This document shows, in pieces, positions 2 through 13,355 of a DNA stretch of 64,000 bases. Positions within the stretch are counted from its first letter, which is position 1, and each line of letters starts with the position of its first letter. Under the pieces are notes generated by a model. The model saw nothing but the letters and a program-made list of their open reading frames with translations, was not told the DNA's origin and did no database searches. The DNA is taken from assembly GCA_019695185.1 (NCBI GenBank), contig JAIBAN010000023.1, positions 1 to 64,000 on the forward strand, in the 5' to 3' direction. A program made the translations under genes and the position numbers. Origin of the DNA: Blastocatellia bacterium (GTDB taxonomy: Bacteria; Acidobacteriota; Blastocatellia; Chloracidobacteriales; Chloracidobacteriaceae).

Positions 2-3000
2 ACCACCAATGCCGGGTTCGGTGCGGGAGCCCAGGGCGGCGGGGGCGGCGGCATGGGCGGCGCGGTGTTTTGCTACGGTGGCCGCTTGGTTGCCATCGCG
101 TCCACCTTTTCCAATAACTCGGCGCTGGGCGGAAACGGGAACTATTTCCGGTCTTCAGGAGGGAGCGGCATCGGCGGTGCGGTGTCGGTGCTTGGAGTTG
201 GCAGCACCACCGTCGAGTTTTACCAATCCACCATCTACGGCAATACAACCAATGTCGGAAACAGTCCGGGAGCGGTTCCCACCAACCGGCGGGGCGGCGG
301 AGGCGGCATCGCCTACATTTCCACCACGGTCAACGACCCGATTCGCGGGGTGGTGGAGGGCTGCACCGTCACTGCCAACCAGGCGCTGGGCGGATACAAG
401 GGCGGTGGCATGGAGGTGCTTTCCCTTTTCAATGACCTGTCCGCCGTCACGGACATCAAGGTTCGGTCCAGCATCGTGGCCGGTGCCACCCAGACCAAAC
501 CGGACATCTTTCAGGTTTTCAACAACGGCGCGCTCAATACCAGCAGCTACAACCTGATTGGCACGGTTGAGAACTCCCCTACTTTTGTGAATAACCAGAA
601 CAACGACCAGGTGGGAGTGCTTGACCCCAAACTGCTGGCGCTGGCTTCCAATGGCGGGCCAACCCAAACGTGCCAACTGGCGGTTGGCAGCACCGCCCTG
701 AACCGGGGTGACAGCACGATTGTGCGCGATTATGACCAGCGCGAAGCACCATATAACCGGCGCTGCGGACAATGTGACGTGGGTGCCTATGAACAGCAAG
801 CGCCGTTTTTCACGACCCAGCCCGTCAGCCAAACAGCGTGCCCCGGCACTTCGGTTACCTTCACTGTGGCAGTGGATATGGTTTCAACCACCTTCCAATG
901 GCGCAAAGACGGCGTGAATATTGCGGGGGCAACCGGTTCCAGCTATACCATCAATCCGGTCACAGCGGGCAACGCAGGGAATTTCGATTGTGTGGCAACG
1001 GCCTGCACCGGTACGACTTCAACGGCGGCAACCCTCACCGTGAACGGCCCGCCAGCGGTTGATGCCCAACCGAATGGAGCCATTCTGTGCGTCGGCAATC
1101 AGGTTTCATTCAATCCGGCCTTTTCCAGTTCGACTCCGCTGACCTATCAATGGCGGAAAAACGGGGTGAATATTCCGGGGGCGACCTCGCTTTCCTACCA
1201 AATTGTCAGCGCCACCCTGGCCGACATCGGGAGTTACGACTGTGTGGCGACCAATACCTGCGGCTTCATCATTACCCAGCCTGCCACGGTATCGGTGCGG
1301 TCCGGTCCGGGAATTTCCCTTCACCCGGTCAATCAGTCCGTGTGCGAAGGTGGTTCCAATGCGGTTTTCACCGTTCTGGGAAGCCCGGTTGTTCCCAATC
1401 CGCCGCTGACCTACCAGTGGCGGCAAAATGGAACCAACCTTCCGGGAGCCACCTCGACTTCGGTTTCGATTCCGGCAAACCTCAGTTCAAACGGGGCTGT
1501 GATTGATTGTCTGGTGAGCGACGGCTGCGGCGCGACGACTTCCAATCCCGCCACGCTGACAGTGAATGCCCTGCCGACGTTCACGGCCCACCCGACCAAC
1601 CAAAGCACCTGCACCAACCGGGCGGTGACCTTTTCCATCACGGCTACCGGAGCCGCCAGTTTCCAATGGCGCAAGGACGGGACCGACATTCCGGGGGCGA
1701 CCGGGACCAGTTTCACGATTCCCGCCGCCACTTCCGCCGATTTCGGAACCTACACCTGCCAGGCCACCAGTGCTGCCGGGTGCAGCCGAATTTCAAACGG
1801 CGCGACGCTGGCACTGGACCCTCCGTTTGTGTTCACCAGCCAGCCGGGCGACCAAACGGTTTGTCAGGGGACTTCGGTCAGTTTCTCGGTAACGGTTACC
1901 GGACCGTCATCAATTTCCTATCAATGGCGGAAAGGCAGTTCCAACATCCCTGGCGCAACCAGTGCCACCTACACAATTCCAGCCACCGTGCCGGGTGACG
2001 CCGGGTTGTATACTTGTTCGGTCAGTAGTTCCTGTGGGGCCATTGTTTCCAATTTTGCCTTCCTGACAATCAGCCCCTTGCCGGTGCTTCGAACCAACCC
2101 GGTCAGCCAATCAATCTGTTCCGGCTCTCCGGTCACCTTCCATGCCTTTGCTGATACTGCCATCAACCTCAATTATCAATGGCGCAGGAACGGCATCAAC
2201 CTCACCGGCCCAAGTTCAACCAGTCAATTCTTTACCATTCCGGTGGTGAACGGGTCGCATACGGGAAATTATGACTGCGTGATAACGGGTGCCTGCGGTT
2301 CGGTCACCAGCACTGCCGCCACCCTGACGGTTTTGACGGCACCGGGTTTTTCGTTCCAGCCGGTCAGCCGGTCCATTTGTTTAGGCGGTTCGGCCATGTT
2401 TTCGGTGACGGCAGTCGGAACCCCTGCGCCAACCTATCAATGGCGCAAGAACGGAACCGATATTCCCGGAGAGACTTCGTCCACCTTGACTATTGCGGCC
2501 ATCACGGCGGGTGATGGTGCCGGGTATTCCTGCGTAGCGACCAATTCCTGCGGCAGCCTCGCCTCAGCTACCGGTAACCTAACCGTCCTCACCACGCCGG
2601 TGATTACCGGTCAACCAGCCAATCAGAACAGTTGCCAGGGAGGTTCCGCATTTTTCAGTGTCACTGCGCCCAATGCAGTCAGCTACCAATGGTTCAAAGC
2701 GGGTGGCAGCACCGTCCTGGCCACCACCGCCGAGCTTACCCTGACCAATGTGGACCCCAGCCAGGGTGGCGACTATTTTTGCCGGGTGACCAACACCTGC
2801 GGCACCCTCGATTCCAATCCGGCAACTCTGAGCGTGGCCACGGTGACCATTACGAAACAGCCGATTCCCCAGTCGGCCTGTGACGGGACGCCGGTAACCT
2901 TGACCGTTGAGGCAACCGGAGCTGTGGCCTATCAATGGTGGAGCTTCAATGGCCCGATTGGAGGGGCCACGACGCCAACCCTTTCCGTGACAAGTCAGAA

Positions 3001-6237: not shown

Positions 6238-9200
6238 TCACCGCCAATCTCCCTGCATCTGGAAGGCCGCCCAATAGTAGGGTACGTGCCAGCGCCGTTG
6301 CGCCAGAACCTGTTTTTGGGCTGCCTGAAGGGCGGCTGCCGGGCGCAACCCATCACGCAGCATGCCCTGGTAAAATCTGGTCATCAGTTGAGCCGTGGCG
6401 CGGTCGTTGACGTTCCAGGAGCTGACCACCACGCGCCGGGCACCGGCATACATCAGCCCACGGGTGAGTCCAATCAGACCTTCGCCTTTGATATGGGGAC
6501 CAAGCCCGGTCTGGCAGGCGCTCAGGGTTACGACCTCGGCAGGCCAGTTGAGGTTATAGAGGTCTTGCAGGCGTAAAAAACCGTCCACCGGATTCCCTTT
6601 TTCGTCCACCAGCGAAAGCAGCACTGCCGACAGGTCGGGATGCTCAAAATTCATCAAACCGTGGGTAGCGAGATGAATGTAGCGAAAGCGGCTGAGGTCG
6701 GTTTCGAGCAGTGCCTGACGGCTGGCCTGGAAATCAAGCCGGACCAGCGCTTGCTCACCGGCAATCGTCCGGATGGCTTCGGCCTCAAGTCGGGTGCCGG
6801 GCAGGCGCGGAATATGGAAGGCACGCAGTTCACGGGAATCCCGCTTGGAATCGGAGGAGGCTTCCGGATAGAAAGGCTCCAGATAGCGATTGACTTCCTT
6901 GTTGAGCACTGACGACCCATCCGCCCCAAGTGCTTTCAACCGGATGTCACTGGCTTCAAAAACCGGGTCAGCCACCACGGCCACTCCGGCTGTCGGAGCG
7001 GGTTTCTCACGTTCCTGGCGGAGCGCGGAAAGAACCGAAACCGAAGGCTGTGACAGGATTTCATGCTGTTCAATCAGATAGGGAGCATCCTTTCCCGCAC
7101 CGGGTTCCGGCACCGGGAGGGCTGCAAACGGAATCAGGTGCAACCGGCCATCGGGCACAATGACCAGCCGCCGGGAACCCAGTTCTTTTTGCAGCGGGCC
7201 GAGAATCATCCGGCTCAATTCGGCGGCGGCCTGCGGATATTCGCGGTCGGCCTGCACCACCTGGGCCACAAAATCAATTGGGGCAGTTGCGGTTTCACCC
7301 TGTTTCCGGCTGGGCGGTTGCCCCGCCGTCGTGCGCCGGTTCAGCAGGTCGTAGACCCGTTGTGCCTGCTGGTTGATTTTATCTGCCGGAGAAAGTTCGT
7401 AGACTGTGAAACCGGTCTTTGTGATGGCAAAAACCTGACTATGGTCCTCGCCCAGCAGGTACTCCAGCAGGAGGGTGTCTGCGTCGAGGATTTCAGCCTG
7501 GATTGCCTCAATTGTCGGCGGTTTGGGTTGCACCAAGGCGGCATAGGCCGGGCTTTTCTGCCGGATTTCTGTTTGCAGCGTGCGGTATTGCTCGGTCAGG
7601 GTGGTGATTTCCTGTTCGGCGGCAGTGCGTTGTTCGGGGGTGTATTTCCGGGCCAGCAGGCGGGCCAGCCCTTCGTATTTGTTGGTAATCCGTTGTTTGA
7701 GGTCCTGTTCCTGCTGGATGAGTTGGGGCGGGGCACCTTTGCGCAGGTCGAGCCTTGCTTCACCAAGCAAATCCAACAGAGCGCGGGCGCGGGCCTGCTC
7801 ACTGGCCTGGAACGCCAGTCGGTCAAAGCCGGCTTTGGGTTCCCGGCGATGCAGGTCGAGCAGAATGCTGACGTACAATTCAAAGTAGGATTGCACGGTG
7901 GCGAAAAATGAAGTCCGATAGCTGCCCTGAGTGCGGGACCGGAGAAACTCGACCAGTTCCAACGCTGCTTCCGCATGGGCTTTGGCCTCCGGCAGCCGGT
8001 TCAATGCCTGTTCGGTGGCAGCCAGGCCAATCAGGGTTTTGGCTGTCTGATGGCGGTTGCCGGTGGCCTGACACAAGGCGAGAGCCTGTTCCAGATACGG
8101 CAGGCTGGCCTGTGGCCGCCCCTGTTTTCGTTCCAGGTAGCCCAGATTGAACAGAGCCAGTGCTTTGGTATCACGGTCCCCCTTGGCTTCGGTTCTTTCC
8201 AAAGCCTGTTTGAAGTATTCCACCGCACCCGGAATATCATTTTGCTCAAACCGGATTGAACCCAGATTATTGAGCGTCGTCGCTTCACCAAGGCGGTCGC
8301 CGATTTCCCGGCGAAGAGCCAGGGAGCGGGTGTAGAGTTCCAGCCCCTGGGCAGCCTCGCCCAGGTGCCGATGGGCCAAAGCCAGATTGTTCAAGCCGGT
8401 GGCCTCGTTTTGCCGGTTGCCGGTTTTCTGCCAGATAGCCAGAGCCGCCGTAAACTGGGTCAGGGCCTGGCGGGGTTCGCCAAATTCCAACAAGACTATT
8501 CCCAGGTTGGTCAACGCCAGCGCTTCCCCGTCGGGACTGCCTTGTGAGCGGGCGACCTGGAGGGCCTGCTGGTAATAGTCCAGGGCTTTCTGATATTCGC
8601 CCAACCGTTTGTAGGCCAGACCGGTATTGTTCAAAAGCGTCCCTTTGAGAAAAACCAACGGAACCTTTTCCAGCAAGGCCAGCGATTTGAGATGGTATTC
8701 CAGCGACAGTTTGATTTCGCCCAGGTCACTGTAGACCAGCCCGATGTTGTTCAAGGTTTCGGCCTGGCTGATTTTCCCTTCGTACGTTTCTTTGATTGAG
8801 ATGGCTTTTTGCATCAGATCCAGCGCGTTGCGATAATCACCCAGCGCCCGATAGATGTTGCCCCGATTGGAAAGCAGCGTTGCTTCATAGCGTTTGTCGC
8901 CTTGCTCGACACAGATTTTGAGGGCCTGTTCGGAATAATCCAAGGCTTCATTCCATTGGCTCAACCCATCGCAGATAATCGCCAGCATATTGAGCGTGGA
9001 AGCCTCACCCATCGGGTAATTTGACTTTTTCTTGAGGGGCAGGGATTGCTGAAAAGCGGCTTTGGCTTCCTTTTTGTCTCCCCGCAGCCGGTGCAACGTC
9101 CCAATCGAATCCAGCGTGTAGCCTTCACCAAAGGCATCGTCCGCCCGGTGGAATCCCTGGCGGGCGGTTTCAAACAGAGGCAGGGCGGCGGCTATTGCTT

Positions 9201-9717
9201 CCTTGGTGCCTTTCGCCCAGAGATTGTAGGCTTCCATTGAGGTATGTTGGGCCTGCATCCGGTCCCGGTCCGTGGGGAGGGCGGTTCTGATTTCGAGCAG
9301 GGTCAGCCGGTACGTTCCCGGTCGGGTATCCTCATCCGGTGTCAGCTCAACCTGGTAGGCTCCCGCTGCTGATGCAACAAAGGTCACGAAATCCGGGCCG
9401 TATTGGTTGGTGTAAAAGTTGGTTTCGAGCAGCAGGTTGCCGTCTGCGCCCCGCACCAGGGTCCGAATATCAATCCCTTTTTGTTCAATTTTGAGGTTAA
9501 GGCAGGCGTTGGCCGGAAGGTTCACTCGGTAGGCATGGACCTCCGTTCCTTTGATTTCCCGTTCAATCGGCGGGGAATCCGGCTTGAGGGCGATTGCTTC
9601 AGCCTGGACAACCGGCTTTGCGTCCGTCTGAGCCCATCCCGTCTGAACTAAAAAAATTACCTGCCCAAAGAGAAGCACCAGCACAAAAACCGAAACGGAA
9701 GGGAGTTTGCTTGTCAT
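6238..9717 (-). CDS. Exported TPR-CHAT protein (caspase-like)
   Basis: 1159 aa. N-terminal signal peptide (hydrophobic stretch ending near QTGWAQ), then a beta-rich prepeptidase-like domain (about 35-155), a long array of tetratricopeptide repeats (about 190-600; recurrent NNLGxxxxxxGxxxxAxxxxxxAL pattern), a helical linker, and a C-terminal CHAT domain. The CHAT dyad is intact: His1019 in HLATHG and Cys1068 in LSACQTG, followed by the usual GEG and SSWNVND region. The family is known as caspase-like proteases or scaffolds with TPR-controlled activity. The target is unknown. The signal peptide places it outside the cytoplasm, which differs from the cytosolic CRISPR-associated TPR-CHAT. No partner gene is adjacent. 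Confidence 0.9.
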   Translation of the reverse strand: MTSKLPSVSVFVLVLLFGQVIFLVQTGWAQTDAKPVVQAEAIALKPDSPPIEREIKGTEVHAYRVNLPANACLNLKIEQKGIDIRTLVRGADGNLLLETNFYTNQYGPDFVTFVASAAGAYQVELTPDEDTRPGTYRLTLLEIRTALPTDRDRMQAQHTSMEAYNLWAKGTKEAIAAALPLFETARQGFHRADDAFGEGYTLDSIGTLHRLRGDKKEAKAAFQQSLPLKKKSNYPMGEASTLNMLAIICDGLSQWNEALDYSEQALKICVEQGDKRYEATLLSNRGNIYRALGDYRNALDLMQKAISIKETYEGKISQAETLNNIGLVYSDLGEIKLSLEYHLKSLALLEKVPLVFLKGTLLNNTGLAYKRLGEYQKALDYYQQALQVARSQGSPDGEALALTNLGIVLLEFGEPRQALTQFTAALAIWQKTGNRQNEATGLNNLALAHRHLGEAAQGLELYTRSLALRREIGDRLGEATTLNNLGSIRFEQNDIPGAVEYFKQALERTEAKGDRDTKALALFNLGYLERKQGRPQASLPYLEQALALCQATGNRHQTAKTLIGLAATEQALNRLPEAKAHAEAALELVEFLRSRTQGSYRTSFFATVQSYFELYVSILLDLHRREPKAGFDRLAFQASEQARARALLDLLGEARLDLRKGAPPQLIQQEQDLKQRITNKYEGLARLLARKYTPEQRTAAEQEITTLTEQYRTLQTEIRQKSPAYAALVQPKPPTIEAIQAEILDADTLLLEYLLGEDHSQVFAITKTGFTVYELSPADKINQQAQRVYDLLNRRTTAGQPPSRKQGETATAPIDFVAQVVQADREYPQAAAELSRMILGPLQKELGSRRLVIVPDGRLHLIPFAALPVPEPGAGKDAPYLIEQHEILSQPSVSVLSALRQEREKPAPTAGVAVVADPVFEASDIRLKALGADGSSVLNKEVNRYLEPFYPEASSDSKRDSRELRAFHIPRLPGTRLEAEAIRTIAGEQALVRLDFQASRQALLETDLSRFRYIHLATHGLMNFEHPDLSAVLLSLVDEKGNPVDGFLRLQDLYNLNWPAEVVTLSACQTGLGPHIKGEGLIGLTRGLMYAGARRVVVSSWNVNDRATAQLMTRFYQGMLRDGLRPAAALQAAQKQVLAQRRWHVPYYWAAFQMQGDWR

Positions 9718-9935
9718 AACCAGTGTTGTTGTGTGTCAGGGTGTGTTTGGAAAATGGATCGTTTTTGTGTGCGATTCACCTTAGAACACTGTCAGGAGTG
9801 GCTCAAGGTCTTCTGCCAGAACCTTTGGGAAGCAGCTTGGCTGCCGTATCCCGTATTCCAGGGCGACATTTGTTTCTGTTGGTGGGACCGATGGTCGAGG
9901 GGCCGGCAATGCCGGAATTTTTCGGGATTTTTTTG
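9718..9935. other. Intergenic leader region without a recognised gene
   Basis: Divergent spacer between the TPR-CHAT gene and the thrC promoter. Short frames here show no recognisable protein and no ribosome-binding site. It presumably carries the promoter of the TPR-CHAT gene. Confidence 0.5.
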
Positions 9936-9964
9936 TTGACAAATTCGAATTTGTTTCGTATTTT
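9936..9964 (+). promoter_or_regulatory. Sigma-70-type promoter of the thrC riboswitch operon
   Basis: Perfect -35 TTGACA at 9936-9941, a 17-bp spacer, and -10 TATTTT at 9959-9964. The predicted start near 9971 lies about a dozen bases before the first aptamer stem. Confidence 0.75.
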
Positions 9965-9983
9965 GCAGCTTCACAAACAAAGC

Positions 9984-10033
9984 ACGTGGCGATTTAGGTA
10001 ACTTGCTCCACGTTAAAAACTGCTAAACAGCCG
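9984..10033 (+). ncRNA. SAM-II/SAM-V-clan riboswitch aptamer, copy 1
   Basis: P1 stem ACGTGG (9984-9989) pairs with CCACGT (10008-10013). The loop carries GATTTA (9991-9996) and CTTGC (10002-10006); the 3' side has TAAAAAC and GCTAAA (10022-10027). These elements in this order and spacing match the SAM-II consensus I know (GAUUUA...UUGC...P1'...GCUAAA pseudoknot). A GGT in the loop could pair with GCC at 10030-10032 to form P2. It lies directly after a promoter and before a terminator. Confidence 0.85.
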
Positions 10034-10043
10034 GGAAAATTCC

Positions 10044-10086
10044 AAAGGCCCTGTGCGAGTTTAGCACAGGGCCTTTCGCTTTTTTT
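10044..10086 (+). terminator. Intrinsic terminator after aptamer 1
   Basis: Perfect 13-bp stem (10044-10056 with 10064-10076), 7-nt loop, then CGC and a run of T to 10086. It follows aptamer 1 by 11 nt and lies upstream of the coding region, so it is a likely expression platform (attenuator). Confidence 0.85.
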
Positions 10087-10109
10087 GTGGAATTTTTTAA
10101 CAATTTAGT

Positions 10110-10159
10110 ACGTGGCGATTTACGCAAATTGCTCCACGTTAAAAACTGCTAAACAGCCC
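10110..10159 (+). ncRNA. SAM-II/SAM-V-clan riboswitch aptamer, copy 2
   Basis: Near-duplicate of copy 1: P1 ACGTGG (10110-10115) with CCACGT (10134-10139), GATTTA, TTGC, then TTAAAAACT and GCTAAA (10148-10153). Differences concentrate in the loop (ACGCAAA against AGGTAAC). The second copy is 126 nt downstream of the first and is followed by its own terminator, so the operon has a tandem riboswitch leader. Confidence 0.85.
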
Positions 10160-10171
10160 ATGAGGATACTC

Positions 10172-10209
10172 CCTCCATGCCTGTTTCGGCATGGAGGTTT
10201 TTTGTTTTT
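10172..10209 (+). terminator. Intrinsic terminator after aptamer 2
   Basis: Perfect 10-bp stem CCTCCATGCC / GGCATGGAGG (10172-10181 with 10188-10197), 6-nt loop, then a T-rich run. It ends 59 nt before the thrC start codon. Confidence 0.85.
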
Positions 10210-10267
10210 GGCGACAAAAAATCCTATGTTGAACGTTGGCTGTGCGGCGCATTCAGGAGAAACCGAC

Positions 10268-11506
10268 ATGAGTTTCGTGACTGGTCTGAAATGCCGCGAG
10301 TGTGGACGAAAATACCCGAAAGAACCGACTGCCGGTTGTTCGGAATGCTTTGCCCCGCTTGAAGTTGATTATGATTATGACGCAATTGCCCAAACCCTGA
10401 CCCGTGAAAAAATCACGCGGCGGGAGCCCAACATTTGGAAATACCGTGAACTCCTCCCGCTGGATGGAACCCCGGTTGTCGGGCCGGGCACTGGTTGCAC
10501 GCCCTTGCTCCGGGCCAAAAATCTGGGCAAACGGTTGGGTTTGACCAATCTTTACATCAAAAATGACAGCGTGAATGCCCCGACGCTCTCCTTTAAGGAC
10601 CGGGTGACGGCGGTTGCCGTCAACAAGGCGCTGGAATTCGGCCTGACGGCGGTGGGTTGCGCATCAACCGGCAACCTGGCGAATTCGGTTGCTGCCACGG
10701 CGGCGGCTGCCGGACTGCCCGCTTTCATTCTGATTCCGGAAAACCTGGAAAAAAGCAAAGTGGTCGGCACGACCATTTACGGGGCCACGGTGGTTGCAGT
10801 GCGCGGCAACTACGATGATGTCAATCGGCTCTGCACCCAGATTGCCGACCGCTATGCCTGGGGTTTGGTCAACGTCAATCTGCGGCCTTTTTATGGCGAA
10901 GGCTCCAAAACGGTCGGCTATGAAATTGCCGAAGCCCTTGGCTGGCGTGCTCCGGATGCGATTGTGGTGCCAATGGCGGGCGGTTCGTTGATTACCAAAA
11001 TCCATAAAGGGTTCAAGGAATTTGAAAAACTGGGGCTGTTGGACGCGCCGGTTGCAACCCGGATTTTCGGAGCCCAGGCAACGGGCTGCAACCCGATTGC
11101 GACGGCGGTGAAACGCTCCACCTGCACCATCAGACCGGTCAAACCCGACACCATCGCCAAATCCCTGGCAATTGGCAATCCGGCGGACGGTTATTTCGCC
11201 GCTGGTGTGATTGCCCGCAGTGGCGGCTGGGCCGAGGATGTTTCCGACCCGGAAATCCTGGAAGGAATCAAACTCCTGGCCGAAACCGAAGGGATTTTTA
11301 CCGAAACCGCCGGTGGCGTCACGGTGGCTGTGACCCAGAAACTGGTGGCTGAAAAGCGAATCAAGCCGGATGACGTGACGGTGCTCACCATCACCGGCAA
11401 CGGCCTGAAAACCCAGGAAGTCCTGCACACCGCGCCTCCTGTCGTGATTGACCCGCGCCTGGCGGATTTTCACTCGGCAGTCTTTGGCAAAGCGGCTTCG
11501 GCCTGA
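10268..11506 (+). CDS. thrC: Threonine synthase (PLP fold II), possibly a methionine-pathway enzyme
   Basis: 412 aa. The start at 10268 is chosen because AGGAGA lies 7 bases upstream; the frame extends further upstream but would run through the riboswitch. The N-terminal zinc-ribbon-like Cys9-x2-Cys12...Cys24-x2-Cys27 is followed by the PLP domain with the Schiff-base lysine in LSFKDR (Lys110) and substrate motifs (STGNLANS). The family converts O-phosphohomoserine to threonine and phosphate. Control by two SAM-sensing RNAs and the neighbouring sulfur carrier and aspartate kinase suggest a link to methionine: either it balances the O-phosphohomoserine branch, or it uses a thiocarboxylated carrier to make homocysteine (inference). 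Assignment to the threonine synthase family is firm; the in vivo product is not. Confidence 0.9.
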   Translation: MSFVTGLKCRECGRKYPKEPTAGCSECFAPLEVDYDYDAIAQTLTREKITRREPNIWKYRELLPLDGTPVVGPGTGCTPLLRAKNLGKRLGLTNLYIKNDSVNAPTLSFKDRVTAVAVNKALEFGLTAVGCASTGNLANSVAATAAAAGLPAFILIPENLEKSKVVGTTIYGATVVAVRGNYDDVNRLCTQIADRYAWGLVNVNLRPFYGEGSKTVGYEIAEALGWRAPDAIVVPMAGGSLITKIHKGFKEFEKLGLLDAPVATRIFGAQATGCNPIATAVKRSTCTIRPVKPDTIAKSLAIGNPADGYFAAGVIARSGGWAEDVSDPEILEGIKLLAETEGIFTETAGGVTVAVTQKLVAEKRIKPDDVTVLTITGNGLKTQEVLHTAPPVVIDPRLADFHSAVFGKAASA

Positions 11507-11790: not shown

Positions 11791-12066
11791 ATGGCACACA
11801 CGATTACAATTCCAACTTTGTTGCGCTCGCTCACCGGCGGACTGGAAACCGTTGAGCTGGAAGCTGCAACCGTTCTTGAAGTGGTTGAAAACCTGGACGC
11901 CCAATATCCCGGCTTCCGGGCCCGCATTTGTGAAACCAATGGCGAGTTGCGCCGCTTCATCAATTTTTATCTGAACGGCGAGGACGTGCGGTTTCTGGAT
12001 AATCTGGCCACCCGCCTGCCCGAACAGGCGGAAATTGCCATCATTCCCGCCATTGCCGGAGGTTAA
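11791..12066 (+). CDS. MoaD/ThiS-family ubiquitin-like sulfur carrier
   Basis: 91 aa, typical length for the beta-grasp sulfur carriers. The C terminus ends in IIPAIAGG, the Gly-Gly tail that an E1-like enzyme adenylates and converts to a thiocarboxylate. No processing tail follows GG. The hydrophobic pattern (MAHTITIPTLLRSLTGG at the start and FYLNGEDVRFLDNLATRL later) is that of MoaD/CysO. It lies between thrC and lysC, starting 2 bp before lysC, which points to sulfur transfer in amino-acid synthesis rather than molybdopterin or thiamine synthesis. CysO (cysteine) and HcyS (homocysteine) are known precedents; which applies here is inference. Confidence 0.85.
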   Translation: MAHTITIPTLLRSLTGGLETVELEAATVLEVVENLDAQYPGFRARICETNGELRRFINFYLNGEDVRFLDNLATRLPEQAEIAIIPAIAGG

Positions 12067-12068
12067 TC

Positions 12069-13355
12069 ATGTCGCAGCAACAGACAGCCCACCCGATACG
12101 GGTTTTGAAATTTGGCGGAACTTCGGTCCAGCACGCGGCAGCCATCCGGCGGTTGACGGAAATTGTGGCAGCCAAACGCAAAACCTGTCGTCCGGTGGTC
12201 GTGGTTTCGGCACTGGCCGGGGTCACCGACACCTTGCTTGACGCGGCGCGGATTGCCGCCCGTGGTTCACTGGAAACGGTTCACTCCCGCCTGAAAAAAC
12301 TGGAAAACCGCCATGCAACGGTTCTGCGGGAACTCTTCAACCAGCATTCCTGTCTGGCGAGCGAACTCTTTCTGCTGGATACGGCCCGGATTTTGGAAAC
12401 CCAACTGGCCGAACTGGAACTGCTGCTGAGTGCCGTTGCAACGCTCGGAACGCTGCCGGATGTCATTCAGGACGCAGTGGTGGCATTTGGTGAACGGTTA
12501 AGCTCGGTGCTGGTGACGACGGCGCTTCAATTGCGGGGCATCACGGCGGAAACCGTGGATGCCCGCCGGGTGATTGTCACTGACGGGCGTCATACCTGTG
12601 CCGAACCGGACCCAACAGCCATTGGGAAACAAAGCCGGAGAATCATTGCTCCGTTGCTGGAAGCCGAAACCGTGGTGGTGACACAGGGGTTTATCGGTTC
12701 CACCCGGAACGGGGCCACGACGACGCTCGGACGCGGAGGCTCGGATTTCACGGCGACCTTGCTGGGAGCAGCTCTCGATGCGGAAGCGGTTGAAATCTGG
12801 ACGGATGTGAACGGGGTACTGACAGCAGACCCGAAAATCATTCCCGGAGCCGCAACCATTCCTTTTCTGACCTTTACCGAGGCGGATGTATTGGCCCAGT
12901 TTGGGGCCAAAGTCCTTCATCAGCGGACGGTTCAGCCTGTCCGGGCGAAAGGGATTCCGGTGTTTGTCTTCAATTCGGAACAGCCCGACGGCCCCGGCAC
13001 CAGGGTTGATGGCGGGCAAAAAACCGCATCCGGTGTGGTGAAATCCATCGCTATCATTCCGGAAGCCCATCAAACTCTGCTGGGGTTGGTCGGAACCGGC
13101 ATTGCCCATTCGGCCACCATCAAGGCCAAGGTGTTGGACACGCTCCATCTGTTTGAAGCCGAACTGGTGCGCGAACCGCTTTCCCCGCATTGTCTGGCAG
13201 TGATTGTGGATGCGGTTGACGCCAAACGGGCCGTGGTGGCCCTCCACGAAGCGTTTTTTGAGTCGCCCGCAGAGCCTGCCGGACGGGCGGAAGCCTCACA
13301 CACGTTGAAAATCCTTGGTGTGCAACCCCTCGTTCTCAGTCCTTCCTTCATTTGA
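12069..13355 (+). CDS. lysC: Aspartate kinase
   Basis: 428 aa. Motifs: KFGGTS near residue 14, GRGGSDFTATLLG, and WTDVNGVLTADPKI. The C-terminal part has ACT-like regulatory sequence (LVGTGIAHSATIKAKVLDTL...). It phosphorylates aspartate, the first step toward homoserine, methionine, threonine and lysine. It starts 2 bp after the sulfur-carrier stop, so it is co-translated from the SAM-riboswitch operon. Its last 60 bp overlap the 3' end of the convergent histidine kinase gene. Confidence 0.93.
   Translation: MSQQQTAHPIRVLKFGGTSVQHAAAIRRLTEIVAAKRKTCRPVVVVSALAGVTDTLLDAARIAARGSLETVHSRLKKLENRHATVLRELFNQHSCLASELFLLDTARILETQLAELELLLSAVATLGTLPDVIQDAVVAFGERLSSVLVTTALQLRGITAETVDARRVIVTDGRHTCAEPDPTAIGKQSRRIIAPLLEAETVVVTQGFIGSTRNGATTTLGRGGSDFTATLLGAALDAEAVEIWTDVNGVLTADPKIIPGAATIPFLTFTEADVLAQFGAKVLHQRTVQPVRAKGIPVFVFNSEQPDGPGTRVDGGQKTASGVVKSIAIIPEAHQTLLGLVGTGIAHSATIKAKVLDTLHLFEAELVREPLSPHCLAVIVDAVDAKRAVVALHEAFFESPAEPAGRAEASHTLKILGVQPLVLSPSFI

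Follow-up and report, generated by a model that had tools for sequence, protein, structure and literature searches.

The DNA ahead of a thrC-like operon in a Blastocatellia bacterium (Acidobacteriota) carries two near-identical elements in series, which raises the question of what these elements are, and whether they act on transcription or on translation, singly or together. The window analysed comprises 64,000 nucleotides (positions 1 to 64,000 of contig JAIBAN010000023.1), with the features of interest given in Table 1. The original prediction had described tandem aptamers of SAM-II or SAM-V type, each linked to its own terminator and together forming an OFF switch; for SAM-II, this is supported by aptamer matches and terminators, and we consider it very probable that the leader combines two complete SAM-II riboswitches, one after the other, both acting by transcription termination.

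The two copies have a length of 52 nt each (9981-10032 and 10107-10158), are 92% identical at a spacing of 126 nt, and both contain the expected GATTT/TTGC/GCTAAA core and a P1 stem. Rfam was searched at permissive thresholds over 421 nt (9880-10300), with RF00521 (SAM_alpha, SAM-II) emerging as top family for both copy 1 and copy 2 (E 5.5e-5 and 3.3e-5, respectively). These covariance-model matches are significant, though they stay below the gathering score of 36, and a scan of the whole window at the gathering threshold was empty. When the complete genome was searched with RF00521, the same two copies were the best matches (E 1.5e-4 and 2.7e-4); relatives of the same class pass the gathering cut-off, with scores of up to 53.6 bits. 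A class model, R1, was built from 52 aligned class aptamers, an alignment that itself includes all three copies found in this genome; on the genome, the two leader copies and the third copy (67.7 bits) were followed by a drop to 26.7 bits. Two other loci were discarded: L003 (27.8 bits), which lies inside a PP2C-like reading frame and was taken as a chance match, and L005, which resembles coding sequence and is devoid of the core motif.

Table 1. Positions of the leader elements and neighbouring genes in the window.
Feature	Position	Strand	Details
TPR-CHAT domain protein	6238-9717	minus	1159 aa; divergent from the riboswitch operon
thrC-like/thiS-like/lysC operon leader		+	~290 nt; two SAM-II units in series
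Promoter	9936-9964	+	-35 TTGACA, spacer 17 nt, -10 TATTTT; 10/12 consensus; kept in sister-genus L033
SAM-II aptamer 1	9984-10032	+	RF00521 29.9 bits; class model R1 73.1 bits
Aptamer 1, P1	9985-9989/10008-10012	+
Aptamer 1, core	9991-9995; 10003-10006; 10022-10027	+	GATTT; TTGC; GCTAAA
Aptamer 1, P2a	9997-9999/10030-10032	+	GGU:GCC
Antiterminator 1	10021-10066	+	UGCUAAAC (10021-10028) with GUUUAGCA (10059-10066); excludes top of terminator 1; duplex -10.5 kcal/mol
Intrinsic terminator 1	10044-10086	+	stem 10044-10056/10064-10076, loop GAGTTTA, U tract to 10086
SAM-II aptamer 2	10110-10158	+	RF00521 30.7 bits; class model R1 71.0 bits
Aptamer 2, P1	10111-10115/10134-10138	+
Aptamer 2, core	10117-10121; 10129-10132; 10148-10153	+	GATTT; TTGC; GCTAAA
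Aptamer 2, P2a	10123-10125/10156-10158	+	weaker, 2/3 pairs
Antiterminator 2	10148-10190	+	GCUAAACAG (10148-10156) with CUGUUUcGGC (10181-10190)
Antiterminator 2, extension	10159-10165/10172-10179	+	CAUGAGG with CCUCcAUG; swallows 5' arm of terminator 2
Intrinsic terminator 2	10172-10208	+	stem 10172-10181/10188-10197, loop TGTTTC, U tract
Shine-Dalgarno	10255-10259	+	AGGAG, from sequence
Threonine-synthase-like PLP enzyme (thrC)	10268-11506	+	first operon gene; TIGR00260 294 bits (cut-off 167); PALP; closest solved structure 2zsj, threonine synthase
ThiS/MoaD-like ubiquitin-fold sulfur carrier	11791-12066	+	PF02597 56 bits
Aspartokinase	12069-13355	+	AA_kinase 170 bits; TIGR00657 292 bits

In the 52-aptamer alignment, GAUUU, UUGC and GCUAAA are invariant (52/52), the search pattern having demanded all of these positions except the final A of GCUAAA. 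Compensatory changes were found at one P1 pair (CG/AU/GC) and at all three P2a pairs, each altered on both sides (GGC:GCC, AGC:GCU, GAC:GUC and AAC:GUU; pair types GC, AU and GU). Over P1 and the P2 pseudoknot, 96.5% of cells are paired, compared to 28-41% with the partner slid; the P1 part of this figure is biased, because a 5-bp P1 was required for entry into the alignment, while P2a was not a selection criterion. The covariation score was 0.150 against 0.075 for shuffled alignments, and was reached in 0 of 500 shuffles.

The proposed strong terminator after each aptamer was recovered by two approaches in agreement. A consensus scan of an 801-nt stretch returned four terminator-like sites against 1.2 expected by chance, terminators 1 and 2, with 13 and 10 pairs, being much the strongest. 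Their folding energies were -27.8 kcal/mol (z -5.0) and -22.3 kcal/mol (z -4.2), respectively. Two complete units of aptamer and terminator are present in one leader. A consensus promoter had also been predicted and is found just ahead of aptamer 1; it is conserved in the orthologous leader of the sister genus, where both hexamers and their flanks are aligned with TTTTTTTGTTGACAA and GTATTTTGCAGCTTC intact, but taken alone it does not exceed chance, as the consensus scan yielded one promoter with 0.8 expected. At the other end of the leader, the thrC-like coding sequence starts with ATG 10268, the start MSFVTGLKCRECG being kept in relatives. A longer GTG frame from 10112, which runs through aptamer 2, was regarded as an open frame only and rejected as coding start.

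Aptamers and terminators of the class are connected by a common platform, in which GCUAAA(N) of the aptamer is complementary to (N')UUURGC, located in the loop and at the beginning of the 3' arm of the terminator. TTTRGC is contained in 26 of 44 SAM-II terminators versus 8 of 97 other terminators (p 3e-10), with 6 of these 8 belonging to SAM-II loci missed by the search pattern. The antiterminator pairing is supported by covariation: the base following GCUAAA and the base preceding UUURGC are Watson-Crick partners in 26 of 31 cases (C-G 14, G-C 9, U-A 3, none 5; permutation mean 11.6, 0/20,000), in a test in which related sequences are not independent and unique combinations still match in 24 of 29. 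Copy 2 of the window is one of the five unpaired cases, and the UUURGC listed for it sits in the U tract; its pairing is AAACAG:CUGUUU instead, which gives a longer antiterminator outside the common register. Two other partners for copy 2 were discarded, namely a loose TTYRGC match in terminator 2, which is no true complement of GCUAAA, and TTTTTGGC as loop partner, which is located in the U tract past terminator 2 and outside the loop.

Partial transcripts were folded with a model comprising neither pseudoknot nor ligand. For copy 1, RNA ending at 10065-10067 adopted the UGCUAAAC:GUUUAGCA antiterminator, and longer RNA, with the 3' arm out, the terminator; for copy 2, antiterminator 2 was obtained with RNA ending at 10190-10193, and the terminator with longer RNA. 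As the terminator is the thermodynamic minimum of the full-length RNA, switching would have to be kinetic; this speaks against the two-switch reading, as do the sub-gathering scores, the shortened linker, the incomplete P2a of copy 2 and its antiterminator outside the common register. At low SAM, the 3' strand GCUAAAC of aptamer 1 would be free to pair with GUUUAGC, which lies across the loop and 3' arm of terminator 1, and in copy 2, GCUAAACAG would bind CUGUUUcGGC in a pairing that extends into the 5' arm of terminator 2. Since either antiterminator would be made ahead of the 3' arm of its terminator, the polymerase would read through. GCUAAA also serves as P2 strand in the SAM-bound pseudoknot, so that SAM binding and antitermination are predicted to compete, as in an OFF switch: with SAM bound, GCUAAA would be held in the P2 pseudoknot, leaving the terminator to fold and transcription to stop. 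Because both switches would have to be passed by the polymerase, expression should drop more steeply with SAM than for a single copy, and a steep (pseudo-cooperative) response can reasonably be expected.

RF00521 was matched at E <= 0.01 in 47 of 58 relatives versus 0 of 14 control genomes, and at E <= 1e-3 in 123 of 147 genomes of the host's class; in a sample of 80 genomes over the phylum, R1 at E <= 1e-4 detected nine, seven of them in the host's class. Tandems before ThrC-type operons were found in this genome, G003 (L033), G014 (L147), G018 (L032), G022 (L029), G025 (L039), G026 (L031), G033 (L035), G037 (L028), G047 (L024), G052 (L137) and at L042, with a short-chain-dehydrogenase-like gene between tandem leader and ThrC in L032 and L137. 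They cover at least the class families f1, f3 and f7, the family of L042 being outside this count; about nine other genomes have a single SAM-II copy before ThrC. This distribution bears on the possibility that only one switch is at work, the other copy being a decayed or recent duplicate with a constitutive or inactive terminator. The weaker P2a of copy 2 and the missing UUURGC register of terminator 2 would be in line with such a duplicate, but the sister genus retains both copies, each with a terminator of its own, other families also have tandems, and copy 2 has its long alternative antiterminator, and we consider a single working switch unlikely.

Within the class, two aptamer subtypes were distinguished, GGUGAUUU with a linker of 10-11 nt and GGCGAUUU with a linker of 9 nt. 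The window copies have the short 9-nt linker ahead of GCUAAA, and GGC in place of GGU before GAUUU. In the tandems of other families, copy 1 is mostly of the U type and copy 2 of the C type, while in this genome and the sister genus both copies are of the C type, which suggests that copy 1 may have been replaced, or the pair may have arisen anew, in the host's family.

The genes downstream of SAM-II leaders in the class are of the MetH, MetY/MetB, LysC and ThrC types (assigned by reading the sequences rather than by scans). On contig C30, this genome has a third, single copy (G000:C30:30512-30564; L004, L179), found by the search pattern, with the terminator loop GGATTTAGC; it heads a sulfate-assimilation operon with genes for a sulfite/nitrite reductase-like protein (sir/nir-like), a siroheme methyltransferase (cysG-like), PAPS reductase (cysH) and APS kinase (cysC). 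Such targets, which are methionine, aspartate-family and sulfate-assimilation genes as for SAM-II elsewhere, together with the invariant GAUUU, UUGC and GCUAAA (all but the last A set by the pattern), argue against a SAM-II-fold variant that would sense another ligand, e.g. S-adenosylhomocysteine or a methionine-pathway intermediate, by the same terminator logic. We regard this variant as improbable, with the sub-gathering Rfam score, a linker two bases below the Rfam consensus and a GGC that replaces GGU before GAUUU standing in its favour.

The two SAM-II switches are likewise preferred over a leader of mixed mechanism, with copy 1 acting on transcription and copy 2 on translation. SAM-II/SAM-V tandems of this kind are known (PMC9481103). 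The Shine-Dalgarno sequence, however, lies outside both aptamers, ~100 nt 3' of aptamer 2, and occlusion of the ribosome-binding site is therefore unlikely; copy 2 has a strong terminator, and the suggested affinity to SAM-V was not borne out, with no match even at E <= 10 within 9880-10300, making this arrangement very improbable. Chance repeats with unrelated terminators and no riboswitch, which would explain why a gathering-threshold match is absent, have next to no probability, as the matches are significant, covary across the class and have no counterpart in the 14 control genomes at E <= 0.01, the covariation excluding this explanation.

SAM-II had been assumed to act usually at the ribosome-binding site, but terminators are common: many examples with terminators were given in the discovery paper (PMC1273637), SAM-II of alpha- and beta-proteobacteria was most often terminator-linked in a survey (PMC2258182), and further terminator-linked cases are contained in PMC9373788. 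Known SAM-II riboswitches (RF00521), e.g. those of Agrobacterium metA and Sinorhizobium metZ, share P1, the P2 pseudoknot, the core, a promoter just 5', a terminator 3' and the methionine genes with our leader, which differs by a linker of 9 rather than 11 nt, C rather than U before GAUUU, and the tandem arrangement. Tandem SAM-II was published in 2022 with 44 examples, some with a terminator per aptamer (PMC9481103); the tandem terminator-linked design is therefore already known, and the present leader is an expected member. The SAM-II tandems of that publication agree with ours in two aptamers per leader, an intrinsic terminator for each and a predicted pseudo-cooperative OFF response, whereas the short-linker subtype below the Rfam cut-off, the Acidobacteriota class and the thrC-thiS-lysC operon set ours apart, unless the 44 examples include some of these. 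The marine SAM-II/SAM-V tandems described there also have two SAM aptamers in series, the first with a terminator, but their second aptamer is a SAM-V on the ribosome-binding site, while here both are SAM-II with terminators.

Taxon, subtype, covarying antiterminator and regulon are added here; for SAM-II in Acidobacteriota, we found no paper on point in the literature searched, which does not prove absence. Throughout one Acidobacteriota class, the sequences point to control of both the methionine/aspartate branch and sulfate assimilation by a short-linker SAM-II subtype below the Rfam cut-off; at sequence level, and with covariation, they also account for how SAM-II can be coupled to a terminator via its own GCUAAA strand.

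The predicted control by SAM suggests that the ThrC-like and ThiS-like proteins may make homocysteine rather than threonine. The genome encodes two further ThrC proteins, one of them passing a stricter threonine-synthase model, which the window ThrC does not; the closest named relatives of the latter are from Acidobacteria MAGs. MetA is absent from the genome, and for MetX there was a weak partial match only. ThrC-ThiS adjacency was seen in most of 80 ThrC loci, from Nitrospirae, Planctomycetes, Omnitrophota, Deltaproteobacteria and others. In a sulfur-carrier-dependent homocysteine synthase, to which CysM/CysO is an analogue, sulfide carried on ThiS as thiocarboxylate would replace the phosphate of O-phosphohomoserine. 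Such a role fits the riboswitch, the sulfate-assimilation operon under a like switch, the two other ThrC genes and the widespread adjacency; we put it forward tentatively, as possible but doubtful. No paper on point was found for ThrC with a sulfur carrier in the literature searched. The regulon thereby hints at a new function, open to testing, of a gene pair that is widespread.

Some SAM-II copies of the class were found in other settings. L024 has a third copy at 1163-1215 (minus) beside its tandem at 1509-1793 (plus); the opposed strands suggest that SAM-II may also control a divergent gene at this locus. In L022 (G041, tandem) and L153 (G014), the SAM-II leader is located directly 5' of a peroxiredoxin-like gene, which is not a usual target of a SAM switch. 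The target is also unusual in L034 and L150, where one SAM-II copy and its terminator precede a small DinB-like protein of ~175 aa (named from sequence only).
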